IMG/VR virus record: IMGVR_UViG_3300033148_002122
Span: 52,753-116,752 of that record
Source: a virus
Reading direction: 5' to 3' (one strand)
Length of the DNA: 64,000 nucleotides
Each line of letters starts with the position of its first letter. Within the stretch, counting starts at the first letter, position 1. A program made the position numbers and the translations under genes. The notes under the pieces were generated by a model that did not search any database, was not told where the DNA came from, and saw only the letters and a list, made by a program, of their open reading frames with translations. Shown here in pieces: positions 36,034 through 62,418 of the stretch.

Positions 36034-36304
36034 GGGCAAACCTTTCCTCACATTTTATTATTCCGTAGGTTGAATACCTAGGAAATTCTTTAAATGGTTG
36101 TGACTCCCATACTTGGTTCATAGTACAAAATATACGCTTAAGGAATATTAGGGCATCTTCTACGCTATGAAATATATCTGTGTTGTACGTTCCGTTATTG
36201 CCTCTAAATTCAGCTACCCATTTATTATCTTTTTCATGTGGTTTTTCCCATATAATGTAGGTATCTCCATCAGGAAATACTTTTATCCATGCCCCAAGTT
36301 TCAC
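36011..36304 (-). CDS. Hypothetical protein
   Basis: A 97-residue protein with MKLGAWIKVFPDGDTYIIW at the start; compact alpha/beta, no cysteine cluster. ATG overlaps the stop of the sugar-kinase gene (ATGA), so it is co-translated with it. Function unknown. Confidence 0.5.
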   Translation of the reverse strand: MKLGAWIKVFPDGDTYIIWEKPHEKDNKWVAEFRGNNGTYNTDIFHSVEDALIFLKRIFCTMNQVWESQPFKEFPRYSTYGIIKCEERFAHAELLAK

Positions 36305-37254
36305 AGCTTCTCCATTACTTCATCTAGTTCTACTGGATTAACTCCAAATTTAGTTACTGAGATCTCAGCTATTTTTTGTACAAGACCAAGTTTACTCTCT
36401 CTGTCTTCCTGTGGTTCATACGGAGTAAGTAACAGGGCAGCAGCGGCAGTCACTGTGTCACCAGCACCACACGCATCCTGTACGTGAACCTTATCGGCTG
36501 GTATGGTTGCTAGATAGTTGAAGTGCTTGTCAATATACCACATACCTTTATCACCTAGTGTAACAAGTGTATTACACGTAGCTTCTTTATACATCTGTAT
36601 GTATGCTTCCCACTCATAAGTATTAGGTGTGTACACTACTTCAAGATTGTCACTTCCTGCCTCTAGCCTATACCTCTGTTTTGAATCAATTATAAAAAAC
36701 ATCTTTTTTCTTGTGCTATGTTTTGATAGCAATCTATACAACGAGTTAATAAAATCTTGATTTGTCCCAGACTTACCATAGTCTGATAGGATTACCGAAT
36801 CTGGTCTATTCTGATCCAGGTAGTAGTCTATCTTATACATAATATTCATTACTTCAGCCTGAGTCATCTCGCCATACTTGTGTTCTTCATCTAGTCGGCA
36901 AACGTGGTGTCCGTTGCACACTATTCTTGTTTTTACTGGGGGTCTAACGTCATGCACATTTATAGCTACAAAAGGAAAATCAAATATAGACGTTGTATGC
37001 CCAGTCAACGAACACATGACAGGCTTACCACCAAGTGCATGGATTGTCTTTGCTACGTTGGTGGCACCGCCATCGGCTTCCCACTTTTTTATAGTACCTC
37101 CAATTACAGGCACTGGTGCCTCTGGGGATAACTTTGACTCCGTGCCTTCAATGTATTTGTCAATGATGTGATCACCAATTACAAGTATATTCTTATTACT
37201 TGAATCACTGAGATACTTACTGGTTTTCTCGTAGCCTTCCTTACTAAAACTCAA
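36301..37254 (-). CDS. PfkB-family sugar kinase, HldE/RfaE kinase-domain-like
   Basis: A 317-residue protein starting at TTG (37254) with GGGAGA upstream. Seen: LVIGDHIIDKYIEG, then PVIGGTIKKWEADGGATNVA (the DGGAxNVA motif of ribokinase-type enzymes) and VQDACGAGDTVTAAAALLL, the D-x-x-G-A-G-D catalytic and ATP-binding motif. Overall layout is closest to the kinase half of HldE, which makes heptose-1,7-bisphosphate for LPS core; the nucleotidyltransferase half is absent. The next gene is a heptosyltransferase-like enzyme, which supports a heptose link. Confidence 0.75.
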   Translation of the reverse strand: MSFSKEGYEKTSKYLSDSSNKNILVIGDHIIDKYIEGTESKLSPEAPVPVIGGTIKKWEADGGATNVAKTIHALGGKPVMCSLTGHTTSIFDFPFVAINVHDVRPPVKTRIVCNGHHVCRLDEEHKYGEMTQAEVMNIMYKIDYYLDQNRPDSVILSDYGKSGTNQDFINSLYRLLSKHSTRKKMFFIIDSKQRYRLEAGSDNLEVVYTPNTYEWEAYIQMYKEATCNTLVTLGDKGMWYIDKHFNYLATIPADKVHVQDACGAGDTVTAAAALLLTPYEPQEDRESKLGLVQKIAEISVTKFGVNPVELDEVMEKL

Positions 37255-38497
37255 AATATTTCTCCCTCTCTCTGAATAGCTTATCCCTGTCCTGCCAAGT
37301 TTCTGTACCCCATTGTTCTTCTATTTTAGCTATTGAGTCCATAACTTCTTGCAATGAAATAGAATCCATCATTCTACAGACTTTTAATTCTGAATCACCA
37401 CAGTGTGACTGTGTTGGCAGAATATTGTTTGGTCCTGACTGAGTATGTTGTAGGCACCCATTAGGGAATGGCTCACACGTTCCTGGGTGTTCTAGCGTTA
37501 TGTTTCTGGGATAGTACTTGGTCCTAATCTTACCTGGGAATGGCCCATACAGACTAACACTAGGAGTGAAGGTAGCGGCTGCAACATGAACTATTGCTGA
37601 ATCAATTGTTACAACAAACTTTGCCTTAGCTACTAGAGCAGATGCGTACAAGAATCTCATCTGTTTCTGTCTAGCCTCTGACCACATTTCAGTCACAGAC
37701 CTAACTTTTGGGTGAACCTTACGTCCAACCTTGTCTTCAAAGTTGATAATCGCTGACTCAATCTCTGGGTGGTAGAATCCGTTGCCAAGGAATAACGTAT
37801 AGATGTCATACTTTTCTGAGATGGCATCAGCTAGCTCAATCATTCTAATGTAATCCCAATCCCTAACAATAGACGATGATTTAAATTGAATACAGGCGTA
37901 CTCCATAGGCTTTAAACCTATATTCATTCCTTTATTAACAACGTTTCTTGCTGTTTTAAAATATTCCATAGCCCCTGGATAATACGGAAGTCGTTCCAGT
38001 CCTACCAAGTCAATGCCTGCCAGTTGAGAAAATCTGTCAACAGCAGGAAGCTGATCTGGATCTGTATCGGCCTCAATTGTTCCCTCAAACTTAAGGTGAT
38101 AATCATGTGACATGATCGTATTCATACTAAGGGGTAAAACCATTGGGCTAGTTAGCCTACCAATATCTTCGTTGTCTTTCCATATGTCATGAAATCTTTC
38201 TGACGTAGCAACATTTATTGTAGCCTGTGGGTACTTCTGCTTAAGTTTATGTACTAGGCTACTAACAAATAGTAAGTCACCAAATCCACCAGTTCTCCAG
38301 ACTATTAGTTTCTTTCCATTTAAGTCCTCACCCTTGTAGGGCTTATAATAGTCATCAAATTTATCAAACCTTGTTATAGCAGCACGGTTAGAATCACTAA
38401 TCATTTTAGCCAAAGCGTCTGCGATTACATACGGGACACCCCGGCGCATACGGATTTCACCGTAGTGTGCGTCACGATTTAGCTCTAAAATTATCAT
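37244..38497 (-). CDS. Glycosyltransferase family 9 (heptosyltransferase-like)
   Basis: Start chosen at 38497 (MIILELNRDAHYGE) with AAGGAGTT upstream; about 417 residues. GT9 signatures seen: IVWRTGGFGDLLFVSSLVHK at the N-domain and VTIDSAIVHVAAATFTPSVS followed by LYGPFPG at the C-domain. Family members transfer heptose from ADP-heptose to LPS core. The C-terminus holds several Cys/His residues (CEPFPNGC, HCGDSELKVC), an uncommon addition. Overlaps the sugar kinase by 11 bases, and together they look like a small LPS-core cassette. Confidence 0.8.
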   Translation of the reverse strand: MIILELNRDAHYGEIRMRRGVPYVIADALAKMISDSNRAAITRFDKFDDYYKPYKGEDLNGKKLIVWRTGGFGDLLFVSSLVHKLKQKYPQATINVATSERFHDIWKDNEDIGRLTSPMVLPLSMNTIMSHDYHLKFEGTIEADTDPDQLPAVDRFSQLAGIDLVGLERLPYYPGAMEYFKTARNVVNKGMNIGLKPMEYACIQFKSSSIVRDWDYIRMIELADAISEKYDIYTLFLGNGFYHPEIESAIINFEDKVGRKVHPKVRSVTEMWSEARQKQMRFLYASALVAKAKFVVTIDSAIVHVAAATFTPSVSLYGPFPGKIRTKYYPRNITLEHPGTCEPFPNGCLQHTQSGPNNILPTQSHCGDSELKVCRMMDSISLQEVMDSIAKIEEQWGTETWQDRDKLFREREKYFEF

Positions 38498-38612
38498 TAA
38501 AAAACTCCTTAATCCGTTCCCAAACACAATAACCTAGTGTTCCCATACCAGCTACAACACTAGCATCTGCACACAAGTCTGAATTTAAAATATAGTATAG
38601 TATGTCATGCAT
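38472..38612 (-). CDS. Small hypothetical protein (46 residues)
   Basis: ATG at 38612 has GGAGTAG just upstream, inside the last codons of the 3D-domain gene. The product starts MHDILYYILNSDLCADASVV and is moderately hydrophobic. It overlaps the start of the glycosyltransferase by 26 bases and carries that gene's ribosome-binding site. Spacing and signals support translation; function unknown. Confidence 0.5.
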   Translation of the reverse strand: MHDILYYILNSDLCADASVVAGMGTLGYCVWERIKEFFNDNFRAKS

Positions 38613-39112: not shown

Positions 39113-40026
39113 TACCACACCCCGGCATCTTTAAGCATCTTTTTTACCACGGCAGAACAAGTATACAGTTCGTGTATTTCTTTATAACCCTGCATAACAA
39201 TGTCTTCCCATTGCTTTGCAGTAATGTCTGCAATCTTATCCTCAATCATTTTGTGATCGCCATTGAATGTAATACAGTTTTCGCCATCCCGCCACATACT
39301 AATAAAATGTAGGGGAGCATCGTCAGCTACCTCAATTATAGGCACAGACCTACCAAGTATTTCATAGTGTCGTTGGCAATCCCAACCAGCACCCTTCGGT
39401 GATAGTACGTACTGAGAGTTACTTAGGGCACCAAAATAATCTATTCTATTACTATACTTTTTCACTGGATAATGTCTCGCCAGTTCCGATCTGTTAACAC
39501 CGTGTTCAATTGTGAATGACGAATGAATACGATTTTCTCTCGCATCACGATTAACAGTATTCGCTCCTCCTGGCATCAGTGGAATTAGATGATCAGGAAG
39601 TCCAAAAGTAATTGGATAAACGTGTGGGATCTTTTCTCTGGGAACCACAGGTGTAAGTTCTCTCTTAAACATAGGCGGGGCACCGTAGTGCAGCGCAAGA
39701 ACATCATCGTCCTCACCATCCACATAGATATCTGCATTCTTTCTAATACGTCTGCAACTTAGGTTAACAACTAGATCAAAGTTTTCTGGCAGCATATTCT
39801 GTGACCTATCTATAGGATCCGTAATAAAGTATCTGGCATTCATTGCATACTCAGGTCTTGGATGAACCTGACCATCAAAGTCCTGATACAGTATAGCTTT
39901 TCGTGGATAATCAACTGCTTGTTCATTAAACAGAATTCTAAATCCATAGAGTAGATCATCCTGTAGATAATCTTGACCACCAGAAGTAAGTAGTAATATT
40001 TTAGATTTATCTGTCAACTTTTTCAT
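39112..40026 (-). CDS. Probable glycosyltransferase (exostosin-like C-terminal motif)
   Basis: A 304-residue protein. The region YFGALSNSQYVLSPKGAGWD followed by CQRHYEILGRSVPIIE resembles the donor-binding half of exostosin/GT47-like enzymes, where S-P-x-G-x-G-x-D...R-x-x-E contact the nucleotide sugar. The N-terminal half is not recognisable. It sits in the block with the GT9 enzyme and heptose-type kinase, though the 3D-domain gene intervenes. Acceptor and sugar unknown. Confidence 0.6.
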   Translation of the reverse strand: MKKLTDKSKILLLTSGGQDYLQDDLLYGFRILFNEQAVDYPRKAILYQDFDGQVHPRPEYAMNARYFITDPIDRSQNMLPENFDLVVNLSCRRIRKNADIYVDGEDDDVLALHYGAPPMFKRELTPVVPREKIPHVYPITFGLPDHLIPLMPGGANTVNRDARENRIHSSFTIEHGVNRSELARHYPVKKYSNRIDYFGALSNSQYVLSPKGAGWDCQRHYEILGRSVPIIEVADDAPLHFISMWRDGENCITFNGDHKMIEDKIADITAKQWEDIVMQGYKEIHELYTCSAVVKKMLKDAGVW

Positions 40027-41114
40027 TGTATCTCCAGTATAAAAGGTAAAACCTGTGTGTTAAAATCCCAGTCTGTATATTTCTTTCTTACCAAATCAAT
40101 TGTATCCCCGTGTGCGTGACATCCAAAACAAAAGAAAGAGTTAGTATCTGTGTATATATGAAAAGAAGCACGGGCATCATCGTGAAAAGGACACTGTGTT
40201 TTATATCCCCTTGGAAACTCATAAATTATTTTGTTACCAAAGATTGACTTAAACACAGATACTATGTTTTTGTCCTTAGCAGACTTAACTTTCTCAGTCA
40301 TCTGATTGGTATTGTCGTTGACTTTTTTCTTTTTTGAGTCCATCTCATACCATTTCTTACCCGCCTTGGTTTCTGAAAATTTGTAGAGATTCTGTCTAAC
40401 ATATTTTCCAAATCCTTCGTGATAAGACGAATTAATATCAGCATTATCAGGCAACCGAAGAATAGAAATGCGCTTATAAAGTCCATGTTTTGATAGCCTT
40501 CCTGCAAGTTTTACAGCCGCCTTCTGTCCCGATCTGTTTGCATCGTTGTCGAAGGCTATAATAATTTTCTTGTCAATGAAATAATCTAGGTAATGACTAT
40601 TCCAGTTAGTAACTCCTAGCAAACCAATAGCCTTGTACCCATTCTGTAGCAGGGTTAGGGTATCAATTGCACCCTCACAAATAAATATGTAAGAATCTTG
40701 TAAGTCGTTATCTGGATAAGAGATACCTATAGGATAGGCCAGAGGTATTCTTAGTGTCCAGTGAGGAGAGGCACCCTTAGCTACTAGTTCAGACCAAGGA
40801 AATAGTCTAACAGAATAACTAAATAACTGGCCGTCATTGGTGTACACAGGAAAGAAAATACCATCCAAAAGCATATGCTCTGACCTAGTAATGAATCCAA
40901 TTTCTACTGCCGCTTCTTTCTTTTCATTATCAAATAACGAATTGAATAATTCCTTGTCTTTATTTGTTAGGTATCCACATCCTGCTCTAACTAAGTAGTT
41001 AGTATCTAGTCCTCTGTCTTCTCTTATATACCTAAGAACATCAGGATCTGACTCAATATTTCTCATGTTAGACTGAGCAACTGTACTGATTAGTTTAAGT
41101 ACTTCATTTTTCAT
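40023..41114 (-). CDS. DnaG-type primase with permuted domains (Toprim core first, zinc domain last)
   Basis: A 363-residue primase. Residues 20-135 resemble the DnaG catalytic-core N-domain (RYIREDRGLD, IFFPVYTNDGQL). The Toprim motifs follow: CEGAIDTL with Glu147 and IIAFDNDANRSGQKAA with Asp189/Asp191. The CHC2-type zinc-binding motif, normally at the N-terminus of DnaG and T7 gp4, lies at the C-terminus: CPFHDDARASF (Cys308, His311) and FFCFGCHAHGD (Cys329, Cys332), after a charged linker at about 250-290. It would lay RNA primers for the DnaB-type helicase at 61108. It overlaps ThyX by 11 bases. The reversed order is the main oddity. Confidence 0.85.
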   Translation of the reverse strand: MKNEVLKLISTVAQSNMRNIESDPDVLRYIREDRGLDTNYLVRAGCGYLTNKDKELFNSLFDNEKKEAAVEIGFITRSEHMLLDGIFFPVYTNDGQLFSYSVRLFPWSELVAKGASPHWTLRIPLAYPIGISYPDNDLQDSYIFICEGAIDTLTLLQNGYKAIGLLGVTNWNSHYLDYFIDKKIIIAFDNDANRSGQKAAVKLAGRLSKHGLYKRISILRLPDNADINSSYHEGFGKYVRQNLYKFSETKAGKKWYEMDSKKKKVNDNTNQMTEKVKSAKDKNIVSVFKSIFGNKIIYEFPRGYKTQCPFHDDARASFHIYTDTNSFFCFGCHAHGDTIDLVRKKYTDWDFNTQVLPFILEIQ

Positions 41115-41775
41115 TATGTGTTAGTACCTTCAGTGCCTTGTCACCAAATTCACTAAATAGTATTCCTCTTTCAAATGTATTAATGGAGCCATAGACCATA
41201 GCCGCAAGTTCACGAATTTCCCACATGGCTCCCGCAGCTAGTCTAAGTTCAAAGAAGTTACGTAAACTCCTAGCGTTTATCGTCCACACGCATTCAAATT
41301 TTAGTGACTCAGGCATCTTGTGCTTAAACTTATCAGGTGGAATTCCATCTAGCCTTGCCTTGGTAATAATCTTCCATACATAATCTTTTTCTATTTCATC
41401 TAGTTCTGGGTGGGTTTTTACAAGATGATCCATCAATTCGATACAACTTAATTTCATCATTTTCTTTAGTGTAAACCGTGTTGACCTAACAGAAAAAGAT
41501 GATATCCTGTGACGCTCTAGCTCTAACAGTACAGCACGGGAGAAGCCTTGAATCTCAAACGTATACACCTTGTGTTCTAGTACACTCTCATGCTTACTAT
41601 CTATGATCCTTTTAAGAAGGGCACGGTCTTTGGGACCAATAACATAACCAGATGAGGGTTTCATTCCGCAGTCATCGTATGAGTCACTATTACCCATTGA
41701 ATCATAGCAGGTACGTGCTGCTATTACGCAGTTGTATAGGCTAGTTTCTCCCAAGATTTTTACCTGTTGTTCCAT
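41104..41775 (-). CDS. thyX: FAD-dependent thymidylate synthase
   Basis: A 223-residue protein with the ThyX signature RHR-x7-S (RHRISSFSVRS, residues 88-98). It makes dTMP from dUMP using methylene-tetrahydrofolate, FAD and NADPH. Flanking ThyX features are visible: HESVLEHKVYTFEI before the motif and FELRLAAGAMWEIRELA after it. Length is typical. It lies between recA and primase genes and complements the phage RNR and dUTPase in building the dTTP pool. Confidence 0.93.
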   Translation of the reverse strand: MEQQVKILGETSLYNCVIAARTCYDSMGNSDSYDDCGMKPSSGYVIGPKDRALLKRIIDSKHESVLEHKVYTFEIQGFSRAVLLELERHRISSFSVRSTRFTLKKMMKLSCIELMDHLVKTHPELDEIEKDYVWKIITKARLDGIPPDKFKHKMPESLKFECVWTINARSLRNFFELRLAAGAMWEIRELAAMVYGSINTFERGILFSEFGDKALKVLTHNEK

Positions 41776-41776
41776 G

Positions 41777-42772
41777 CTATTCCAATCCGAAATGATTCTT
41801 TAGCTTATCATAGATTGATGTTCTAAGTATAAGGTTTTCTTTAAGGTTCTTTCTTGCTTTTTCAATTCCTTGCCCAACGTGTTCGCCTTCGAAAGAGAAC
41901 CATGCACCCTTCTTCTCTAGTAACCCAGCTTTCTGGGCACACGCAAGTATATCGGCTTCGAAGTCTATGCCCTCACCGAAATAAATAGGGAACTCAACAA
42001 CTTTGAAGGGTGTTGCTACCTTATTCTTAACAACTTTAACCTTGGTCATTGAGCCTATAATTTCATCGCCACTCTTAATAGGGGTAATTCTTCTTATGTC
42101 AAGTCTAATACTAGAGTAGAACTTGAGTGCGTTACCTCCAGGCTGTGTTTCTGGATTGCCGTACATGACACCAATTTTCATGCGAATCTGATTAGTAAAT
42201 ATGAGACAGGTGTTACTCCCGTGTACTATCCCAGCGAGTTTACGCATAGCCTGACTCATAAGCCTAGCCTGTAGTCCCATGTGTGAGTCACCCATCTGAC
42301 CCTCAATCTCTGCCGCTGGGACCAGGGCAGCCACAGAATCAACTACTACTACATCAACACCACCAGACCTAATCAGAGCCTCTACAATTTGTAAAGCCTG
42401 TTCACCATTATTTGGTTGGCTAATTATTAGTTCATCAGATTCAACACCAAGTTTGGCCGCATATGCAGGATCAAGTGAATGCTCTGTGTCTACAAATGCA
42501 CAGATATCATCGTTTTTTTGTGCGTTAGATAGAATAGAAAGACAGAGAGTAGTCTTACCACTACCCTCTGGACCATAGATTTCTGTAATTCTTCCCTTGG
42601 GAATTCCACCAATACCAAGTGCCCGATCTAGTGAGAAACTTCCAGTAGGTATAGTATCTATGTCTTTTCTAAAGTTATCATCACCCAACTTCATTACTGA
42701 GTTGGCACCATACTCTTTGTTTATTTGTTTCATAGCCAATTCCAGGGCACTAATCTTATCTTCTTTTTTCAC
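41777..42772 (-). CDS. recA: RecA recombinase
   Basis: A 331-residue RecA. Walker [10 protein letters not shown] at residues 67-75, Walker [15 protein letters not shown], loop 1 [21 protein letters not shown] and loop 2 with [20 protein letters not shown] are all present. It forms filaments on single-stranded DNA and drives strand exchange in repair, recombination-dependent replication and possibly packaging of concatemers. The C-terminal region is shorter than in bacterial RecA. It is one base from thyX and overlaps the upstream small gene by 4 bases. Confidence 0.95.
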
Positions 42773-43065: not shown

Positions 43066-43079
43066 TTATACCTCCAAGG

Positions 43080-43152
43080 TTGACGGGGCAGGAGTTGAAC
43101 CTGCAACATTCAGGACCAAAACCTGACGCTCTGCCAATTGAACTACCCATCA
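43080..43152 (-). tRNA. tRNA-Gln (anticodon TTG)
   Basis: A cloverleaf folds by hand: acceptor TGATGGG/CCCGTCA with discriminator A, D stem GTTC/GAGC, anticodon arm TCAGG-TTTTGGT-CCTGA giving TTG, T arm GCAGG-TTCAACT-CCTGC. No CCA is encoded. The first three bases are also the TGA stop of the upstream gene at 43150. Confidence 0.93.
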
Positions 43153-43482
43153 ATAATCCTCAAACATAATCTTATGCGTTTCTTCGGCAAGGAAATCTCC
43201 TTCACAAGTTCTTCTTACTACACCCTCAGTTCCAATAAGTTTCTTTCTGTCTGTTCCATTACCGTTTTCATAGGCAATGGCTTGAAAGGATCTTTCTGAC
43301 GGGTTGTCTAGTTCTATCTCTATCCATGAATTACAGTTAGGGCAGCTATTATAGCAGAAGCTAATCTCAAACGGAGTTAGTGTACTGAGTATACATGGAC
43401 CTTCTTTAGTTTGAAACCCCTGCACCTTAGCTCCACACTTAGGGCATGAACACTTAAAATTTACATTGTCATACATTCCCAT
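43150..43482 (-). CDS. Zinc-ribbon hypothetical protein
   Basis: A 110-residue protein starting MGMYDNVNFKCSCPKCGAKV, with a second pair CPNCNSWIEIEL; four or more cysteines suit a zinc ribbon. The middle (KEGPCILSTLTPFEISFC) is beta-rich. This form recurs in phage genomes without known function. Its TGA stop is the first three bases of the tRNA-Gln gene. Confidence 0.65.
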   Translation of the reverse strand: MGMYDNVNFKCSCPKCGAKVQGFQTKEGPCILSTLTPFEISFCYNSCPNCNSWIEIELDNPSERSFQAIAYENGNGTDRKKLIGTEGVVRRTCEGDFLAEETHKIMFEDY

Positions 43483-43483
43483 A

Positions 43484-44212
43484 TTATTCTCCTAGTTCTA
43501 ACCGCATTTTATTACAGTTCATACCCACATCTCTTGGTATTTTGTTTGATGATATACCACAATAAGTATACTTAACATCTGGACGAGTTTGTTTTGCAAG
43601 CTGGTACATATTTTTAAGTGACGTACCAACGTTGTACACGCCTGTAGCGTCTTTGTTAACTAACCTTGTAATAATATCTGCCATGACATCAACGTAATCA
43701 AAGTTACCAAACTGATCTGCCCAGGCATATTCATGGGGAAACGGCTTGGGCTTGTGTGTTCCCCTCAGAAGGAGATAGTTATTACTCTTGAGTTGAACGT
43801 ACCCGTCTGCCAATAGTTTTGTATACGTATACCAACTAGGATCATGCACAGGAACATCGTCTTCTGTTGCCTTGTTGTCAGAGCCTGCATAAATATAGTC
43901 AGTAACTATCTGTACTAACTTAATTCCCCAAGAGTTACAGAAGTCTACCAAGTCGGCAACACCTTTGTAGTTTATATCCCAATGATTTTGCTTGTCTTTA
44001 CTATAAGTATTCGTATTCGCAATACAATTAACTATCGTGGTGTACTTGGCATTCCAGGCAACCTCGTGATGACAATCCAGTAGTAACTGAGTCCATGTCT
44101 CTGGCTTAGTAATGTCTAGGCCATTGGTCTGTCTTGACAGGTTATCACACTTGAGCCACTTTGTCAACTCTTTTCCAAGAAGTCCGTTACCTAGTACCAC
44201 TATTTTTTCCAT
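43484..44212 (-). CDS. RmlD-like NAD(P)-dependent sugar reductase/epimerase
   Basis: A 242-residue extended-SDR protein: VVLGNGLLGKEL (NAD(P)-binding glycine motif), VNCIANTNTY, VTDYIYAGSDNKATEDD and the YTYTK catalytic Tyr/Lys motif. The TDYVFDG-like segment is characteristic of RmlD (dTDP-4-dehydrorhamnose reductase) and relatives. It is shorter than RmlD (about 290-300), so the substrate domain is reduced. The nearby aminotransferase suggests both make a modified nucleotide sugar; the exact product is not evident. Confidence 0.78.
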   Translation of the reverse strand: MEKIVVLGNGLLGKELTKWLKCDNLSRQTNGLDITKPETWTQLLLDCHHEVAWNAKYTTIVNCIANTNTYSKDKQNHWDINYKGVADLVDFCNSWGIKLVQIVTDYIYAGSDNKATEDDVPVHDPSWYTYTKLLADGYVQLKSNNYLLLRGTHKPKPFPHEYAWADQFGNFDYVDVMADIITRLVNKDATGVYNVGTSLKNMYQLAKQTRPDVKYTYCGISSNKIPRDVGMNCNKMRLELGE

Positions 44213-44364
44213 GATAGATATCCAAGACCATTAAGTACTTCGTTATACAGTAGCCCTATAAGCGTGGATACCATGAGGTATAGTATGTACGCCACAGCAA
44301 TCGCAGCCCAACCAAGGACCAATAACATAGGAGCTAGTGCTACCCACCACATTATGTCAGTCAT
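44200..44364 (-). CDS. Small membrane protein (54 residues)
   Basis: ATG at 44364 overlaps the aminotransferase stop (ATGA) and the frame runs to TAG at 44200, past the start of the sugar reductase. The product is very hydrophobic, with two membrane segments (WWVALAPMLLVLGWAAIAVA and YILYLMVSTLIGLLY) and a charged end. Lying between two nucleotide-sugar genes it might act with them, or it could be holin-like; no family recognised. Confidence 0.6.
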   Translation of the reverse strand: MTDIMWWVALAPMLLVLGWAAIAVAYILYLMVSTLIGLLYNEVLNGLGYLSWKK

Positions 44365-45473
44365 CTGTACACCTCATCAAAGTAGTTGTTAACCCAGTAG
44401 ATTACGTAGCTAATATCTTCGTCTGTCATTCCAGCGTGACAAGGTAGGCTAACTAGCTTGGGCCAAACACTGTCTGCCACGGGGAATGCTGTGTGACTAT
44501 TACTCTGTTTAAGAATATCATACTTATGCAGGGGCTTAAAGTGTACTGAGGTATGAATTTTTTTATCGGCTAGGTAGTTAATGAAAGGGCCACGAATATC
44601 CTGTGGAACCCTAACAGTATAGTACTGCACTGTTTCAGATAACGGGGGACGCTTAATAATACCATTAAGCTCTATGTTGTACCTGTCACGAATATGCCTA
44701 CGCCACTCTAGATTAGCAGGTAACTTCTTTAGCTGTGAAAGTCCAAGTGCAGCAATAAGGTCTATCATATAGTACTTATATCCTAGGACATCAACTTCGT
44801 AGTCCCAGGAATACCCAGAGTTGTTTTGAGTCCTAGACCAAGTAGAACTTACGCCAAACCATGTCATATCCTTCATCTTATTATACAGCCGTGTGTCATC
44901 TGTTGTTACCATGCCACCGTCACCAGTAGGCAGAGTCTTAACAGCCTGGAATGACCACACAGCTACGTCACCTTTTTTACCAGCACCGGGGACATAACAA
45001 CTATGGGCACAGTCCTCTAGTATGAAGCCGTTATAAAACTCTCGTATGCCATCAATATCTGCCGGAACTCCAGCAAGATTTACAGCAGTTACCATCTTGG
45101 TATTGTTTCGTCTAAGTTTCCTTACACTCTGTGGATCAATGTTTAGGTTAACTGGGTCTACATCTGCAAGTGTTGACGAACACATATTCCACAGTGGAAT
45201 AATTCCTGTGGCTATAAAAGAAATGGTTGGACTTATTACGTCCAGGCCCATGTCTAGTCCCATTGCCTTCATAACTAGGTCTTGACCATGAGAGTTGCTT
45301 GTTACGGCAATAGCGTGTTTGGCACCCACCATGCTAGCAAACTCTGCCTCAAACTGTTCAACCTTTGGACCCTTACCCCACCAACCACTATTTAGTACGT
45401 CAGTAACAGCCTGGATATCACTCTGATCGGCGTGTGGTTTAAGCAAGGGTAAAACCTTGTCCCTAATTTCCAT
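44361..45473 (-). CDS. DegT/DnrJ/EryC1-family PLP aminotransferase
   Basis: A 370-residue sugar aminotransferase-type protein. Seen: GKGPKVEQFEAEFA at the N-terminus, the cofactor-binding LEDCAHSC (Asp154) and the PLP lysine in SFQAVKTLPTGDGGM (Lys179). The family transfers an amino group from glutamate to a 3- or 4-keto nucleotide sugar, producing amino sugars for LPS or capsule. Length is normal. It is coupled to a small membrane protein and the RmlD-like gene downstream. Confidence 0.88.
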   Translation of the reverse strand: MEIRDKVLPLLKPHADQSDIQAVTDVLNSGWWGKGPKVEQFEAEFASMVGAKHAIAVTSNSHGQDLVMKAMGLDMGLDVISPTISFIATGIIPLWNMCSSTLADVDPVNLNIDPQSVRKLRRNNTKMVTAVNLAGVPADIDGIREFYNGFILEDCAHSCYVPGAGKKGDVAVWSFQAVKTLPTGDGGMVTTDDTRLYNKMKDMTWFGVSSTWSRTQNNSGYSWDYEVDVLGYKYYMIDLIAALGLSQLKKLPANLEWRRHIRDRYNIELNGIIKRPPLSETVQYYTVRVPQDIRGPFINYLADKKIHTSVHFKPLHKYDILKQSNSHTAFPVADSVWPKLVSLPCHAGMTDEDISYVIYWVNNYFDEVYR

Positions 45474-45843
45474 CTAAGCCTCCATGTTCATCAAATAATT
45501 CCTTAAGTCTTTCGTATTCTTTACGATCTTTTTCCTTTTTCTTTGAATCGTGTTCTAACTTTCTGGCTTTCTTTTTTAGTCTAGACTTTGCAGCCTTGGT
45601 TATTCTCTTTTCTGCCTCTTTCTCAGTTTCTAAGCGTTTCATATACACGTACCACACACGATAGGTATCCCTCCAGTCTTGCTCGTCCTCAAAATCTACT
45701 CTTCCTTCTATGTATTCTTCACGCTTAGTTATGTTGGTAAGAGCAATTATTATGCTTTCAATAGATCCTTCGGGATCAAAAGGAATACGTTCTTCAACTT
45801 CCATTAGTTTTACTAGGCTAGTACCTATTTTAACTCTTGTCAT
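45463..45843 (-). CDS. Lys/Glu-rich coiled-coil hypothetical protein
   Basis: Start chosen at 45843 (MTRVKIGTSLVKLM) because AGGAGGCAGG lies upstream. The first half is compact; the second is a highly charged helix (KKKARKLEHDSKKKEKDRKE) likely to form a coiled coil. Overlaps the aminotransferase by 11 bases. No family recognised. Confidence 0.6.
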   Translation of the reverse strand: MTRVKIGTSLVKLMEVEERIPFDPEGSIESIIIALTNITKREEYIEGRVDFEDEQDWRDTYRVWYVYMKRLETEKEAEKRITKAAKSRLKKKARKLEHDSKKKEKDRKEYERLKELFDEHGGLDGN

Positions 45844-45851
45844 CCTGCCTC

Positions 45852-46004
45852 CTAGTGTACTGTTTCTCTGTCTGCCATAAATACACATTCAATTATCCTA
45901 CCACATTTAGGACACTCAATATTCTGCATGTCAATACTTAGGACAAGTATTGGTTTATCCCTGTCTTCTAGGCATTCAAGGCATTGGTATATAAAGGTTT
46001 GCAT
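45852..46004 (-). CDS. Small zinc-ribbon-like protein (50 residues)
   Basis: ATG at 46004 is preceded by GAGGTAGT. The product has CLEC and CPKC pairs, a likely four-cysteine zinc site, in a 50-residue chain ending ADRETVH. It lies between the structured-RNA/tRNA unit and the coiled-coil gene, 8 bases before the latter's start. Function unknown. Confidence 0.6.
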   Translation of the reverse strand: MQTFIYQCLECLEDRDKPILVLSIDMQNIECPKCGRIIECVFMADRETVH

Positions 46005-46022
46005 ACTACCTCATTTATTAAA

Positions 46023-46113
46023 GGGAGTGCCGTTAACCCCGAACGGACGGCGCTACTAGCCTGCCCTACGGCAGAACCTAGGCAAAGGGGTTCTTTCATA
46101 GCACCTCACTCCC
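46023..46113 (-). ncRNA. Candidate structured RNA with tRNA-like ends and a pseudoknot
   Basis: This 91-base element follows tRNA-Val by three bases. Minus-strand pairings: a closing 7-bp stem GGGAGTG/CACTCCC; inside it GTGCTA/TAGCGC (six pairs, one G-U); a hairpin CTGCC/GGCAG; and, directly before the 3' closing strand, a 5-bp hairpin CCGTT/AACGG with a 7-base loop, exactly where a tRNA has its T arm. That loop (GGGGTT) pairs fully with AACCCC upstream, forming a pseudoknot. An alternative local hairpin AGAACC/GGTTCT would compete. It is not a standard tRNA and I recognise no family. The U-G pair favours the minus strand. Confidence 0.6.
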
Positions 46114-46116
46114 AGG

Positions 46117-46188
46117 TGTCGAATAGTGGGATCGAACCACTGACTTCTTCCGTGTAAAGGAAGCACTCTTCCTCTGAGTTAATCCGAC
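46117..46188 (-). tRNA. tRNA-Val (anticodon TAC)
   Basis: Acceptor GTCGGAT/ATTCGAC with discriminator A, D stem ACTC/GAGT, anticodon arm CTTCC-TTTACAC-GGAAG giving TAC, T arm AGTGG-TTCGATC-CCACT. Two bases with no terminator lie between it and the start of the structured-RNA closing stem. Four bases separate it from tRNA-Ile upstream. Confidence 0.93.
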
Positions 46189-46192
46189 AGGG

Positions 46193-46266
46193 TACAGGGG
46201 GTGGGACTTGAACCCACGACCAGCTACTTATAAGAAAGCTGCTCTTACCAACTGAGCTACCCCTGC
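46193..46266 (-). tRNA. tRNA-Ile (anticodon TAT)
   Basis: Acceptor GCAGGGG/CCCCTGT (first pair G-U), discriminator A, D stem GCTC/GAGC, T arm GTGGG-TTCAAGT-CCCAC. The anticodon loop CTTATAA gives TAT, which reads ATA. The anticodon stem contains one T-T mismatch. It is first in a unit driven by the promoter at 46275-46303. Confidence 0.9.
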
Positions 46267-46274
46267 ATACCCAG

Positions 46275-46303
46275 AGTATAGCAGGGGCAGCCTAGATTGT
46301 CAA
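46275..46303 (-). promoter_or_regulatory. Sigma70-type promoter for tRNA-Ile/tRNA-Val/RNA unit
   Basis: On the minus strand TTGACA (46298-46303), a 17-base spacer, then TATACT (46275-46280). The predicted start lies just before the tRNA-Ile 5' end at 46266. A perfect -35 and near-perfect -10 at optimal spacing make this a strong prediction for the host housekeeping polymerase. Confidence 0.8.
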
Positions 46304-46503
46304 CCATCGGCAGCGAGATCCTCCTGGTTTTCTTGCCATAGCCTATTGACTTCTGTGTGTAGTTCATTCAAGAAATCACCATCACACACAATTTCTTCAA
46401 CTAACAGGATAAAATCAATAATTTCAGCGTGTTCTAAACTAGTAGCAAGACTTTCAGCAATTTCAGTAAACTCAACATCCATACTTACTTTAACAAAGTT
46501 CAT
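46300..46503 (-). CDS. Small acidic hypothetical protein
   Basis: A 67-residue acidic, helical protein starting MNFVKVSMDVEFTEI. AAGGAGGG lies upstream and the ATG overlaps the preceding stop (ATGA). Its last codon region overlaps the -35 box of the tRNA promoter by four bases. Function unknown. Confidence 0.6.
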   Translation of the reverse strand: MNFVKVSMDVEFTEIAESLATSLEHAEIIDFILLVEEIVCDGDFLNELHTEVNRLWQENQEDLAADG

Positions 46504-46628
46504 CGCTTATGCCCTCCTTGACCCCTGTATTTCTTTGTACCCCTAGGCCATTTGCTATTGCGGCTAGCACCTTGACGAGTTTTTTTCTTGTGTCCACCTT
46601 TATAATTTGAATCTGATTCTCTAGCCAT
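46500..46628 (-). CDS. Small very basic protein (42 residues)
   Basis: ATG at 46628 with AGGGGAACC upstream; frame ends in the ATGA overlap with the next gene. The product is dominated by Lys, Arg, Gly and Ser (for example GGHKKKTRQGASRNSK) and could bind RNA or DNA. Coupling to the downstream gene supports translation. No family recognised. Confidence 0.55.
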   Translation of the reverse strand: MARESDSNYKGGHKKKTRQGASRNSKWPRGTKKYRGQGGHKR

Positions 46629-46639
46629 AATTGGTTCCC

Positions 46640-46810
46640 CTATTTATTGTTAACTGACCCAGTTAGTAATCCATTTAGTACCAGGGCTGCGAACCACGTT
46701 TTAAGTGTATAGGCAATACCTAGGCCAAACAGTGTGTTAACTGTCCACAGTGTTAAGAAGGGTGTAACTACTATAATCAATGCAACAAAAAATATCATTA
46801 AAAATCCCAT
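46640..46810 (-). CDS. Small two-segment membrane protein (holin-like candidate)
   Basis: ATG at 46810 follows AAGGAGATATGT. The 56-residue product has two hydrophobic segments: FLMIFFVALIIVVTPFL, then GIAYTLKTWFAALVLNGLL after a short polar turn, ending in polar GSVNNK. Size and topology are compatible with a holin or another small phage membrane protein, but no lysis gene adjoins it, so the role is unproven. Confidence 0.6.
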   Translation of the reverse strand: MGFLMIFFVALIIVVTPFLTLWTVNTLFGLGIAYTLKTWFAALVLNGLLTGSVNNK

Positions 46811-46821
46811 ACATATCTCCT

Positions 46822-47040
46822 TTAAGGCAACCCAAGAGGGAACACTGAGTCCGCTGAAAGTCTATCACATTTTGTACACTTACGCAAGTATCTTGGTGGT
46901 CCCGCTAGTTTTTTATCTTCACAGTGTGGGCAACAGTTTTTACTTCTTCTATAATGTGAAGGGCTAACACCATCCGTTAACCTCTTGACTATCTGGTAGT
47001 CATGTCCCCACCACCACCACCATTTGTTTCTACACTTCAT
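46822..47040 (-). CDS. Zinc-ribbon protein with a five-tryptophan run
   Basis: A 72-residue protein with ATTAGGAGGAG upstream. Residues 7-11 are five Trp encoded by a (TGG)5 tract. Later CCPHC and CTKC form a probable zinc site among basic residues. The Trp run near a zinc ribbon is unusual. Family not recognised. Confidence 0.6.
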   Translation of the reverse strand: MKCRNKWWWWWGHDYQIVKRLTDGVSPSHYRRSKNCCPHCEDKKLAGPPRYLRKCTKCDRLSADSVFPLGLP

Positions 47041-47060
47041 ACTCCTCCTAATAAATAAAA

Positions 47061-47150
47061 GATCCTCTAGCGAAGGGACTGCATCTTGGGCTTTATCAAC
47101 TAGTCTCAGCAGTCACCTAGAAATGCCTCGAATTCATGTGCTAGAGGATC
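47061..47150. ncRNA. Candidate structured RNA closed by an 11-bp stem
   Basis: A 90-base interval is bounded by a perfect 11-base inverted repeat (47061-47071 and 47140-47150, GATCCTCTAGC/GCTAGAGGATC). Inside it GACTGC (47077-47082) pairs with GCAGTC (47109-47114). It lies in a 139-base gap without a credible gene. No T tract follows either end, so it is not a simple terminator. Strand undecided; surrounding genes are on the minus strand. Confidence 0.5.
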
Positions 47151-47179
47151 AATGCCAGTCTTTCCTGGCAGTCACTAAC

Positions 47180-47407
47180 TCAGTTAGAATTTATGTGCTT
47201 CTTCACCTCAAGAAGCAGTTCGTGATTAAGTCCACGCAAGAAGCCAGTGCAGTCCTTATAGTTACGGATACGCTTGGCAATCCTACGTGCTTTATTCTTT
47301 GTACAGCGATTCTCACGGATGTAACGCTCGTACTTGTACTTCTTGGAGATGCAACGTCTGAGACATCTGCCTCCCTTTCGAAGATTCTGATTATCTTTTT
47401 TAGCCAT
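47180..47407 (-). CDS. Small basic cysteine-containing protein
   Basis: Start chosen at 47407 (MAKKDNQNLRKGG), with AAAGGTAGGTG upstream; a GTG three codons earlier is possible. About 75 residues, rich in Lys/Arg and containing four cysteines (GGRCLRRC, NRC, KDC). Its start codon lies in one arm of an inverted repeat, suggesting translational control. Function unknown. Confidence 0.55.
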   Translation of the reverse strand: MAKKDNQNLRKGGRCLRRCISKKYKYERYIRENRCTKNKARRIAKRIRNYKDCTGFLRGLNHELLLEVKKHINSN

Positions 47408-47456
47408 GTCAAACACCTACCTTTCTAGGTTATATTTGACATGACGTTCCTCCTAA
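47405..47456 (-). promoter_or_regulatory. Leader with start-codon inverted repeat and 5-codon upstream frame
   Basis: CATGTCAAA (47405-47413) and TTTGACATG (47435-47443) are perfect 9-base inverted repeats separated by 21 bases. On the minus strand the downstream arm contains the ATG of the gene ending at 47180. The upstream arm begins a five-codon frame (MSNIT) preceded by AGGAGGAAC and ending just before the gene's own ribosome-binding site. This arrangement could couple or attenuate translation. Confidence 0.4.
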
Positions 47457-47484
47457 TCTAAATGGAAACATTGTTTCTCCCTTA

Positions 47485-47676
47485 TTATTTATTAACAGTT
47501 TCAGACTCTATAAGTCTTGCTTTTATATGTTCTCTATATTCTGCAAGACTGTTAAGAACATCATCATCTAAAGCAATTTTTGTAGTGTTATCTTGTCCAC
47601 GTAAATCCAAAACAATATACCACCCATCATAATGTGCATAGACTCCATCACCTAAATACGTATCTTCCACATTCAT
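47485..47676 (-). CDS. Small conserved-type phage protein
   Basis: A 63-residue protein beginning MNVEDTYLGDGVYAHYDGWY, then IVLDLRGQDNTTKIALDDDV. The Y-L-G-D-G-V-Y-A and L-D-L-R-x-Q-D pattern is one I recognise from many phage hypothetical proteins. ATG closely follows the DUF362-type gene's end. No function known. Confidence 0.65.
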   Translation of the reverse strand: MNVEDTYLGDGVYAHYDGWYIVLDLRGQDNTTKIALDDDVLNSLAEYREHIKARLIESETVNK

Positions 47677-47677
47677 A

Positions 47678-48787
47678 TTACTCCTCTGGTATTCCTGTGC
47701 TTGTATTTACATTGACTGAAACGTAGTCTATTCCTTCATAGTGTAGATCCTTGGCACTAAACTCTCCTGGTACTAACTGGGATGCATACCTTGTGCCAAG
47801 TCCGTACTCATTCTGTGCAATATCCAAGAATGTGTTAAGCCATAGATAGTCACCTCTGTAGCTTCTCTCGTAGTTTATCACATCTGCTAGCACGTTGTCA
47901 AGAGAAAACGCATCACGCGAGAACATTAACGAACTCCATTCACCACCAGGAAACAAATCTTGGTACTGATAGGGTTCAAACTCATGGTATTCTTTAAGAT
48001 ATGTGTGCAACGCTGCCTCACAAATACATAGTTTTTCCCTGCTTTTAATTTCTGATAGGGATGAGAGATGAGCTATCTGTCTGTGCCTATCAATATGTAA
48101 GGACGAAGGAGTTTTAATTGTACCAAAGTGATTTTTCATAGCCCCTGTTATATAATCAGAGTGGCCTTTCATTAGATTTAGATTAATAAGATGATCAGCT
48201 TCCACTAAGTGTGTGGGTAGATACTGTATAGATCCGTTAGGAAATAAAATAGGCTGAGTATCCCAATGGGTTTCATTCTTGGTAATATATTCTACGCCAG
48301 GGTGTAGCAGTTCCCAAGGTGCTTGCCAAAAGCTTGCAATGTTTCTAACGGAGTCGTATACTTTAATGTTTTCTGGATCAACACCAAGGTCATTAATCAG
48401 TGATGATACAACAATGGAAGTCATTGTTACGGAAGTGTTTGGAAGGTGTTCTTCATAACAATTATGGTTAAGCTTTACCACAATCTTATCAAATGGTTGA
48501 TACCCAGTTAGTGCGTTCATCCATGCAGATCCTACATCAGTTTCTTCCGTTAGCTCCAGCATTCCACGATTAAAACTACGCAGCATTTGCCAATCATCAA
48601 TATAGTCTGACCACACACCTGTTGTGTAGTCCCAGGAATTCATTTCTGAATTGTATACTCTTACAACTCTGTTTGGGATTGGATTTGACACCACAAGGTT
48701 ATTCCTTGAGTCTTTACCTGCTGGGAATTTACACCCAACTAGTAAAGCAGCCAAACCAGTTATAAATTCTCTTCTTGTTGGTGTCAT
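47678..48787 (-). CDS. DUF362-type protein with Tat lipoprotein signal
   Basis: A 369-residue protein. The N-terminus TRREFITGLAALLVGCKF combines a twin-arginine motif (RREFI), a hydrophobic stretch and a lipobox (L-V-G-C), predicting folded export by Tat and lipid anchoring. The body resembles DUF362: IVVKLNHNCYEEH, TMTSIVVSSLINDLG and IKVYDSVRN, followed by HSDYITGAMKNHFGTIKTP, which match the family's KPN, TxPxVV and GxKN-type motifs. Family function is poorly known. A Tat signal is rare in phage genes. Neighbours give no pathway. Confidence 0.7.
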   Translation of the reverse strand: MTPTRREFITGLAALLVGCKFPAGKDSRNNLVVSNPIPNRVVRVYNSEMNSWDYTTGVWSDYIDDWQMLRSFNRGMLELTEETDVGSAWMNALTGYQPFDKIVVKLNHNCYEEHLPNTSVTMTSIVVSSLINDLGVDPENIKVYDSVRNIASFWQAPWELLHPGVEYITKNETHWDTQPILFPNGSIQYLPTHLVEADHLINLNLMKGHSDYITGAMKNHFGTIKTPSSLHIDRHRQIAHLSSLSEIKSREKLCICEAALHTYLKEYHEFEPYQYQDLFPGGEWSSLMFSRDAFSLDNVLADVINYERSYRGDYLWLNTFLDIAQNEYGLGTRYASQLVPGEFSAKDLHYEGIDYVSVNVNTSTGIPEE

Positions 48788-48793
48788 GTTTTC

Positions 48794-48937
48794 CTAGTCT
48801 TTAAATGGACTTTCTGTAGGTGAGTCATAGTAGTCTTGACAGTTATCAAGGTTTGTTAGGTAACAGCCTGCTATAATACCCATTAGTATTAATAGTGCTG
48901 TAGTTGTTAACGCCTGTCTTTCTTCTTTTTTATTCAT
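48794..48937 (-). CDS. Small lipoprotein candidate (47 residues)
   Basis: ATG at 48937; product begins MNKKEERQALTTTALLILMG and continues IIAGCYLTN, giving a lipobox I-A-G-C after a short hydrophobic segment. The predicted mature part has about 23 residues. Such short lipoproteins are seen as outer-membrane spanin subunits in phage lysis, but no partner is obvious. The ribosome-binding site is weak. Confidence 0.5.
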   Translation of the reverse strand: MNKKEERQALTTTALLILMGIIAGCYLTNLDNCQDYYDSPTESPFKD

Positions 48938-49109
48938 TAGTATTTTCTTTTAACTTTTCTCCACACCAACCACAGTAGTCTTGCCATTCTCCTAGGTAGG
49001 ATAGTCCATGAATGCAGGCTATATTAAATACGGCATTCATTTTAGGACTATTGTTCTTATACTTTTCACACGTACACACTCTTTCTGCGCGGTCTAGTCT
49101 TTTACTCAC
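48930..49109 (-). CDS. Small cysteine-rich protein (59 residues)
   Basis: GTG start at 49109 with AAGGGGAT upstream. Product MSKRLDRAERVCTCEKYKNN and later YCGWCGEKL: CxC plus CxxC, likely a zinc site. It overlaps the following small lipoprotein by 8 bases. Function unknown. Confidence 0.55.
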   Translation of the reverse strand: MSKRLDRAERVCTCEKYKNNSPKMNAVFNIACIHGLSYLGEWQDYCGWCGEKLKENTNE

Positions 49110-49131
49110 GCTATCCCCTTTACTCTGTAGG

Positions 49132-49212
49132 TACGCCGGAAGGGATTCGAACCCTTACACCCTAGGGCACGGGAACCTAAATCCCGCATGTCTACCGTTC
49201 CATCACCAGCGC
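49132..49212 (-). tRNA. tRNA-Leu (anticodon TAG)
   Basis: Acceptor GCGCTGG/CCGGCGT with discriminator A, anticodon loop TTTAGGT giving TAG, a long variable arm as expected for Leu, and T arm AAGGG-TTCGAAT-CCCTT. It lies 4 bases past the stop of the gene at 49217. Confidence 0.92.
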
Positions 49213-49216
49213 ATAG

Positions 49217-49420
49217 TCATTCAGTATCAACTATCTGATTTGTATTACTGTCAAGATAGGCAAACACTTTTTGCCACCGTTTCCCACTCCACATCTTTTT
49301 CTGCTTATTACTCATTGGAGTAGGAATACCGTTCTCACAGTGTTCATCCTCTATATGATTGTGTACCCATTTCTTGGATTTTTTACTCCATGTTCTCCAC
49401 ACAGTAATAGGGTATTTCAT
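49217..49420 (-). CDS. Small basic hypothetical protein
   Basis: A 67-residue Lys/Trp-rich protein starting MKYPITVWRTWSKKSKKW; GGGGAGGAG lies upstream. No cysteine pair or membrane segment. It is preceded by a long region with no gene and followed closely by tRNA-Leu. Confidence 0.55.
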   Translation of the reverse strand: MKYPITVWRTWSKKSKKWVHNHIEDEHCENGIPTPMSNKQKKMWSGKRWQKVFAYLDSNTNQIVDTE

Positions 49421-49717
49421 ACGGATCTCCTCCCCATAACGCCTTTGACTTTCCGGCCATTCTTACCAGCCTAATTCTAGGGCTAAGAAATAGCACAAAC
49501 CATCGGCACCAAATAACTTGTTTAGAAAAATACCAATTCAATTTAATTTCCTTGTTTAATTAACCCTCTGACCGGATTCCCCACCCGGCTCCTTGGTTTC
49601 TGTTACTTACACCATTTTTCAAACGTTACGACAGTCCACGTTGTGTATTGTGGTTTTTTATAACAGCATACCCTTCGTCATACTCAACTCAGTGCTGCCA
49701 CACCGCAGAGGGCTAGG
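49421..49717. other. 297-base stretch without a recognised gene
   Basis: Both strands were read: short frames end quickly and lack ribosome-binding sites. The stretch is AT-rich in its middle (around 49530-49565) and includes one short possible hairpin (AGCC...GGCT near 49470-49482). On the minus strand it would form the 5' leader of the gene at 49217 after tRNA-Ala. I see no clear promoter or known RNA motif. Confidence 0.4.
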
Positions 49718-49788
49718 TGGAGTCTAGGGGAATCGAACCCCTATTCCTGGTTTGCAGGACCAGCGTTCTACCTTTGAATTAAGACCCC
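49718..49788 (-). tRNA. tRNA-Ala (anticodon TGC)
   Basis: Acceptor GGGGTCT/AGACTCC has the G3-U70 pair that specifies alanine; discriminator A; T arm AGGGG-TTCGATT-CCCCT; anticodon arm CTGGT-CCTGCAA-ACCAG giving TGC. Position 33 is C where U is nearly universal, and the D stem has one mismatch. Its 5' bases include the TAA stop of the upstream gene. Confidence 0.85.
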
Positions 49789-50186
49789 TGCACACTCCTA
49801 ATATAAACATGTCCACCAACTGCTTCAATCAGTTTAGTAAATTCATCCACTGTAGTCCCTGCCTTTATTGCACTACTTGTGTCTAGCCACGAATGAGGCT
49901 TAAGCCAAGCCACGGCTCCTTTATTGATATCCTCAACAGAGTATACTGAGTTTCCACCAGTTGCCAGATCAGCAGGAGTATCAAACGGACCATCCCAGCC
50001 TATTTTTATGATCGTATCACTGGGTGGTCTATTATAGGGAGAACCTGCATTATGCTCATACGGTGCGTCATTCCAGTCATCACCCCACTGATCCTCAAGT
50101 TTTCCTGTTGTAAAGTATGCCCAGCAGCCTTCAACGTAGCACAGAATGTATTTTGGTAGTTTTTTTGGTATGTAACTTTGTCCCAT
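49779..50186 (-). CDS. Hypothetical protein
   Basis: A 135-residue protein starting MGQSYIPKKLPKYILCYVEG with AGAGGAAGAT upstream; alpha/beta, rich in Trp, Asp and Gly, with no cysteine cluster or signal. Its TAA stop lies 10 bases inside the tRNA-Ala gene, so the two transcripts overlap. Family not recognised. Confidence 0.55.
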   Translation of the reverse strand: MGQSYIPKKLPKYILCYVEGCWAYFTTGKLEDQWGDDWNDAPYEHNAGSPYNRPPSDTIIKIGWDGPFDTPADLATGGNSVYSVEDINKGAVAWLKPHSWLDTSSAIKAGTTVDEFTKLIEAVGGHVYIRSVQGS

Positions 50187-50205
50187 ATCTTCCTCTCTTA
50201 TTTGG

Positions 50206-50279
50206 TACGCTTGAAGGGATTTGAACCCTTAGCCTACGGCTTAGAAGGCCGTTGCTCTATCCTGTTGAGCTACAAGCGC
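50206..50279 (-). tRNA. tRNA-Arg (anticodon TCT)
   Basis: Acceptor GCGCTTG/CAAGCGT with discriminator A, anticodon arm ACGGC-CTTCTAA-GCCGT giving TCT (reads AGA), and T arm AAGGG-TTCAAAT-CCCTT. Eight bases separate it from tRNA-Leu upstream. Confidence 0.93.
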
Positions 50280-50287
50280 ATACTAGG

Positions 50288-50370: not shown

Positions 50371-50451
50371 TTAAATTAATAAAAATTCTTCGTATCCATT
50401 AGATAGTTAAATGCGTATATATAGAAAGGGCATACTCAATTGCCTAGTAGT

Positions 50452-50480: not shown

Positions 50481-50481
50481 G

Positions 50482-50955: not shown

Positions 50956-51027
50956 CGGGAGGAGGTGTATACCCTTCCACCACTCCCCCATATACTAGAT
51001 AGATAAGGTTATGATTTCGTCTTCTCC

Positions 51028-61107: not shown

Positions 61108-62418
61108 TTACTCTAATGATGCCGATCTTATTTCTCTAAAGGTCTGTACGTTTTTTATGTTCCTGGTAGTTATTTCTCCTATTGGTCCGTTTCTATACTT
61201 TGCCAGTGTAACCGTAGTCTCTGGCTCTGCATTTCTACGCTCCTCTCTAGGGGCAAACAGGAACATAACTTGATCAGCGTTAGACTCCAGTTCACCGCTG
61301 TCTCTCAAGTCACTAAGTCTAGGCTGTGACTCGTCTTCACGATCATCAATACCACGCTTAATCTGAGACAATAACATAACTGGAGTATGAATTTGCCCAG
61401 CCAGAATCTTTAGCATCCTTGCTACTCCACCAACTTTTTCATTACGGTTTCCAGTAACTAAATCATTGTTAACTAACTGGGCGTAGTCAACAATAATTAA
61501 ACCAAGTTTCTTTTCCAAGAACTTTAGTTTCTTTGCCTTGGCTAGAATGTCACTAAGGTTTACTGTCTGGGAATCATCAATAAATAACTTCCACTTAGAC
61601 ATTCTTTCAATCGTTGTCTTAATGTGTGTCCAATCATTAGCATCAAGTCCTTCACCAGTTTTTAAGTTTACGCTGTTGATTTGAGTAAGATGTGACAGAA
61701 TTCTATTAAACATCTGTTGTTTACTCATTTCTAACGAAAATATAACAACTGGCATCCCCATTTCTAGGTTGACAACTGCTGTCTGGAGTGCCCATTGTGT
61801 CTTACCCATAGATGTGGCTGCCGCTACAATACACAAATCATTATACTCTAGTCCACCCACTATAAAGTCATCAATTGAAGTATTTGTTATAGGACCATGA
61901 TTCACAACTGGTTTTCCATGAGAAGCATTTTCTCTAACATCGTCTAGAAACTTACTATACTCAGCCAAGTCAGCAACTAGGTTTGGCATGGCATCAGTGT
62001 CAGAAGTTAGCTGGATATCACTCAGCTTGCTTCCGTACTGTTCAACAAGTGCTTGTCCTGATGTCTTACCCTCTTCAACTTCGTATACAATGTTGTTACC
62101 AACATCTTTTAATTCTCTCAAAAACTTAACGTCATTCAACGACTTAACAAGAGATAGATACGATTCTCCAGGTGTACCACGGTTTATAATACTCTGGAGT
62201 GTACCCTGCTTATCTATTTCAGAAGAAAATATGGAAGGCACAATTATAGTTGTGCCCTCCTTATATTGACTGAGTATAAATCTAAAGATTTCCCTATGTA
62301 CCGGATCGCTAAAAGAGTTTTCTCGCAAGGCTATATCGTGACGAAACATTGTTTCTGGATTTCTAGACAGAATAGACAGTACATCAGACTCTGCCTCTAC
62401 GTTGTATAGATTTCTCAT
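61108..62418 (-). CDS. DnaB-family replicative helicase
   Basis: A 436-residue helicase. The N-terminal helical region resembles the DnaB N domain (residues 1-130). The RecA-like core has Walker A AAATSMGKTQ (about 199-207), VVIFSLEMSK, Walker B LIIVDYAQLV and LLSQIKRGIDDREDESQP with LRDSGELESNADQV. It unwinds DNA 5'-3' as a hexameric ring and would pair with the permuted primase at 40023. It overlaps the upstream gene by 4 bases (ATGA). Confidence 0.93.
   Translation of the reverse strand: MRNLYNVEAESDVLSILSRNPETMFRHDIALRENSFSDPVHREIFRFILSQYKEGTTIIVPSIFSSEIDKQGTLQSIINRGTPGESYLSLVKSLNDVKFLRELKDVGNNIVYEVEEGKTSGQALVEQYGSKLSDIQLTSDTDAMPNLVADLAEYSKFLDDVRENASHGKPVVNHGPITNTSIDDFIVGGLEYNDLCIVAAATSMGKTQWALQTAVVNLEMGMPVVIFSLEMSKQQMFNRILSHLTQINSVNLKTGEGLDANDWTHIKTTIERMSKWKLFIDDSQTVNLSDILAKAKKLKFLEKKLGLIIVDYAQLVNNDLVTGNRNEKVGGVARMLKILAGQIHTPVMLLSQIKRGIDDREDESQPRLSDLRDSGELESNADQVMFLFAPREERRNAEPETTVTLAKYRNGPIGEITTRNIKNVQTFREIRSASLE

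Follow-up and report, generated by a model that had tools for sequence, protein, structure and literature searches.

A phage genome fragment encodes what is best explained as a DnaG-type primase with reversed domain order, in which the catalytic core (residues ~20-250) comes first, followed by a basic, probably helical connector and, at the C-terminus, by the CHC2 zinc-binding domain. The catalytic and zinc-ligand residues are intact, and the order of the two domains is rare among DnaG-type primases. The protein is probably a working priming enzyme, a reading to which a probability of about 0.8 is assigned. This zinc-last primase is known from one metagenomic contig only, the 116,752-base IMG/VR record of an uncharacterised phage; the window (the whole stretch of DNA that was analysed) covers 64,000 nucleotides of that record. 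The relevant features, with the evidence for each, are as follows:

40023..41114, minus strand: permuted DnaG-type primase, core then zinc domain (Pfam, PHROG, AlphaFold2)
40410..41045, minus strand: catalytic core of the primase, made up of a DNAG_N-like part (residues 24-105) and Toprim (residues 142-230), with E147, D151, D189, D191 and D226; coordinates drawn from the profile match to residues 26-235 (Pfam, invariant columns, Foldseek 3b39, 1dde and 5w33)
40275..40367, minus strand: lysine-rich connector of the primase, residues 250-280, predicted to be mostly helical (AlphaFold2 secondary structure)
40026..40271, minus strand: C-terminal CHC2 primase zinc-binding domain, residues 282-363, with C308, H311, C329 and C332 (PF01807, AlphaFold2, Foldseek 1d0q)
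41104..41775, minus strand: thyX, flavin-dependent thymidylate synthase, the upstream overlapping gene (Pfam Thy1, E=1e-36)
41777..42772, minus strand: recA, operon neighbour of the primase (Pfam RecA, E=5e-129)
61108..62418, minus strand: DnaB-type replicative helicase with N-terminal domain, the presumed partner of the primase (Pfam DnaB_C, E=1e-65; DnaB N-terminal domain, E=6e-9)

The primase gene (40023-41114, minus strand) is an uninterrupted open reading frame of the window with an ATG start and 363 codons, encoding 363 amino acids. A sequence-only reading had described this frame as a DnaG-type primase with a C-terminal zinc domain; its coordinates and strand proved right when the frame was re-read, as did its numbering of seven residues (E147, D189, D191, C308, H311, C329 and C332). 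Its statement that the gene is not split also holds, since both domains are carried on a single chain by one intact frame. The Toprim motif reads E147-G-x-x-D151 and D189-x-D191, and the CHC2 motif reads C308-P-F-H311 ... C329-F-G-C332. In profile searches, the C-terminal Cys/His cluster matches the primase zinc domain PF01807 at residues 302-355 (E=5e-13, 49.2 bits against a cut-off of 24.9, with the whole protein as query), and residues 271-363 alone match it with E=4e-14. The core matches Toprim_2 at residues 144-229 (E=1e-11) and, weakly, DNAG_N at residues 24-105 (E=1.5e-4, 22.3 bits, under the gathering cut-off of 26). Both halves of the protein are assigned to 'DNA primase' in PHROG (E ~2e-23), and all 13 PHROG matches are to DNA primase, primase/helicase or proteins of unknown function; the families matched by the zinc part carry the zinc domain at their N-terminus (profile positions 12-92). 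When PDB sequences were searched, the zinc part matched 2au3 (Aquifex primase) and 1d0q (a primase zinc domain), and the core weakly matched DnaG. In alignment with six canonical relatives, the columns of E147, D189, D191, D226, R34 and R103 are invariant.

The zinc domain is not a second copy of an N-terminal one. A search of the full 116,752-base record with E values up to 1 found no second CHC2 domain, and because this domain occurs once in the whole record, there is no N-terminal zinc copy in it; nor does the record hold any other primase core or zinc domain besides the zinc-last gene. Only ~24 residues precede the core of the primase, which has no N-terminal zinc domain. No helicase-binding domain was matched in the primase by Pfam, and the residues after the core are occupied by the connector, which would act as a linker, and by the zinc domain.

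Structure prediction and fold comparison further support the identification made in the sequence-only reading. The AlphaFold2 model of the primase (mean pLDDT 80.2, pTM 0.63) was built from an alignment, A6, in which the tails of the core rows are misaligned onto the zinc domain. Both a DnaG-type core and a primase zinc domain were modelled and matched to solved structures. Residues 301-350 of the zinc domain reach a pLDDT of ~90-95, residues 250-280 are predicted as helix with a pLDDT of ~58-80, and residues 109-138 are poorly modelled. With this predicted model as the Foldseek query, the best 18 PDB matches are DnaG core structures (E 5e-10 to 5e-7; ~260-309 columns aligned, TM ~0.5), the fold of the DnaG RNA polymerase domain being present together with its N-terminal lobe. 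The zinc domain 1d0q follows at rank 19, aligned over 90 columns at 2.0 A, so that the best 19 matches are all DnaG-type primases. Similarity to the T4/T7-type structure is only weak (8dvf_H, E=1.6e-3).

The primase starts inside the 3' end of thyX with an 11-base overlap, and its stop shares ATGA with the ATG of the next gene; by virtue of these overlaps, it is a normal member of a tight operon. The phage brings replication machinery of its own, with a DnaB helicase that has an N-terminal domain, a DNA polymerase A, and RecA and ThyX beside the primase. Given the helicase and the polymerase, the phage plausibly replicates with the zinc-last primase. The ~20 kb between the primase and dnaB is uninformative, in either direction, on whether the primase contacts DnaB.

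Known primases offer the same parts in the opposite order. Bacterial DnaG shares with the zinc-last primase the CHC2 zinc domain and the Toprim core, including the acidic residues and the fold. However, bacterial DnaG runs from zinc domain to core to helicase-binding domain, whereas the phage primase runs from core to zinc domain, and the helicase-binding domain of DnaG was not detected in it by Pfam. T4 gp61 and T7 gp4 are phage primases that likewise combine a zinc domain with an RNA polymerase core and have a hexameric helicase partner, but both are zinc-first, and the present primase has no zinc domain at its N-terminus.

The rarity of the order was assessed in a census of relatives drawn from phages, plasmids, viral contigs and genome contigs. 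When all frames of 173 loci were scanned with two-domain profiles, the zinc domain came first in all of the 104 further open frames with both domains, a count that represents fewer independent cases than it suggests because many of these frames are closely related to each other. The sole zinc-last frames were those of the primase gene under study, which occurs twice because two of the loci were taken from one and the same position. No match covering 80% of the primase was found in 50,697 phages or 72,556 plasmids, and viral contigs yielded no relative when scanned with single proteins, namely the primase, DnaB, ThyX and DNA polymerase A. Degenerate profile and pattern scans returned zinc-first, zinc-only or core-only frames and no zinc-last frame. 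A core-then-zinc profile matched core and zinc domain separately in canonical genomes; in 396 genomes of one phylum searched with a colinear core-zinc profile, the matches listed cover the core (best 140 bits), and none among them spans both domains. Structure comparison found no viral model covering both domains well in core-zinc order, and no description of a zinc-last primase was found in the open-access literature. The parts of the primase are ordinary, and their core-zinc order had no counterpart in the collections searched. The zinc-first order that the sequence-only reading had ascribed to DnaG was borne out among the DnaG-type primases compared, and in the homologues compared the zinc domain comes first, either within one protein or encoded by a gene of its own upstream. 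As all relatives have the opposite order, the zinc domain of the phage primase appears to have moved.

Some other frames carry cysteine clusters late in the chain. One zinc-first primase (L190:6880-7995) has a further small Cys cluster (CPIC...CTVC) at its end, which is not CHC2. In addition, loci in viral contigs (L040:3500-4318, L021:3497-4318, L028 and L026) encode zinc-only proteins of ~190-275 amino acids with the primase CHC2 domain at the C-terminus, preceded by a probably helical stretch. These late zinc domains were considered as further zinc-last primases and rejected, as the core profile found no Toprim in frame.

In a 48-row tree of cores, the primase core joins compact plasmid, MAG and phage primases in a set of seven rows (support 96/92), a placement that is tentative because the core lies on a long branch. 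The core is highly divergent, its best identity to the nearest relatives being ~27-28%. Among these relatives, and within the same supported set, is the toprim protein WDT82702.1 of a Candidatus Manganitrophus plasmid (27-28% identity). At 341 amino acids, this protein is similar in size to the phage primase, which is also without a recognisable helicase-binding domain, but its zinc domain is N-terminal (residues ~12-85) rather than C-terminal. Since this plasmid member is so short and zinc-first, the zinc-last order can be explained simply as a permutation of such a compact primase. The source would most likely be a compact zinc-first primase of a mobile element or a split primase pair, and the zinc-last order may have arisen through duplication followed by truncation or through fission followed by re-fusion. 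A further-reaching proposal is that the gene is a natural circular permutation of a DnaG-type primase, passed down in a lineage of phages, that changes zinc-domain access (in cis or in trans), primer length or the arrangement of primase and helicase; this is offered tentatively, with the odds against it. The zinc domain favours neither a fused nor a stand-alone origin: its best score is 57.4 bits against stand-alone zinc domains and 58.2 bits against fused ones, and a special kinship with stand-alone zinc proteins is unsupported by these values.

The order could also stem from a recent read-through fusion of split-primase neighbours, a core gene and a zinc gene, in which case the modules would act independently in trans and their order would be without functional consequence. 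Such an origin is possible but doubtful, and it would only partly exclude the reading of a working primase with reversed domains. Split phage primases do exist, for example the gene pairs of mycobacteriophage cluster A and the zinc ribbons of jumbo phages, and they encode zinc domain and core separately, whereas the zinc-last primase joins both in a single chain, core before zinc domain. In jumbo phages, a primase zinc ribbon standing on its own has been reported (PMC7824862), and in three large phage records (G010, G011 and G012; loci L184-L189) the genes for core and zinc domain lie >17 kb apart. A fusion would also fit the position of Met272, ahead of the zinc domain, and the stand-alone core in L184, which begins at about the same place as the zinc-last primase. 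Conversely, the core of the primase clusters with the compact zinc-first primases rather than with the split cores of G010-G012, and in both tight split pairs seen (L004, from a mycobacteriophage, and L015) the zinc gene is upstream of the core gene. The bit scores of the zinc domain do not place it nearer to stand-alone domains than to fused ones, and no clear ribosome-binding site lies ahead of Met272. For this last reason, an internal start at Met272, similar to that of gp4B, was also dropped.

That the frame arose when metagenome assembly joined two distinct genes, one for a core and one for a zinc domain, is improbable. The order is seen on a single metagenomic contig and has no close relative in the collections searched to confirm it, but the gene is a single frame that overlaps its neighbours tightly on either side, and the record is without another core or zinc domain. 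Codon usage on the two sides of the gene correlates (r=0.95) and GC3 is similar in its halves (0.30 and 0.36), a uniformity across the region that argues weakly against a join. Toprim also occurs in OLD nucleases, RecR and topoisomerases, and the core is divergent, but the 13 of 13 PHROG matches, the best 19 PDB matches and the adjoining replication genes argue against a Toprim enzyme of another kind, for instance a nuclease of defence or repair, having gained a zinc domain like that of primases, and this last alternative is less probable still.

As a working zinc-last primase, the protein would prime DNA synthesis like other DnaG-type primases, together with the phage's own DnaB-type helicase. 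The zinc domain would hold the priming site on the template and the 5' end of the primer, and the Toprim core would add ribonucleotides. Because it is tied to the C-terminus of the core, the zinc domain would reach the active site by a different path, and it may serve that site in cis, or in trans between adjacent primase molecules on the helicase. That DnaG molecules act on one another in trans was reportedly described by Corn and colleagues in 2005. According to work on T4 and T7, the start site on the template is read by the zinc domain, which also keeps the 5' end of the primer while the core extends it. The zinc domain of T4 gp61 scans the template and retains the primer by its 5' triphosphate, and the 18-residue linker after this domain tolerates length changes, with changes of a few residues having little effect (PMC10359460). 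In light of the trans action and the small effects of the T4 linker, a primase whose zinc domain is attached at the opposite end of the core could still function. The order may affect primer length or helicase contact; the sequence-only reading had suggested an effect on contact with the template or with DnaB. The cis or trans pairing of zinc domain and core, and the role of the tether in primer length, are a standing question, and a natural enzyme whose tether joins the opposite end of the core offers a convenient way to test whether the connection matters. The usual parts in a new order would thus let biologists test whether order matters for starting DNA replication.

Several other genes of the window were also noted. 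A ribonucleotide reductase of 1144 amino acids (55494-58928, minus strand; Pfam RNR_Alpha and a B12-dependent insertion domain) is split by what looks like an intein carrying an HNH endonuclease. Sugar-related genes at 24691-25941 (plus strand), 36301-38527 (minus strand) and 44361-45473 (minus strand) encode UDP-glucose/GDP-mannose dehydrogenase, PfkB kinase, glycosyltransferase family 9 and DegT aminotransferase, and a 782-amino-acid protein (52797-55145, minus strand) has a Heparinase II/III-like match barely over the cut-off. Eight tRNA genes (Gln, Val, Ile, Leu, Ala, Arg, Leu and Thr) lie on the minus strand at 43078-51632.
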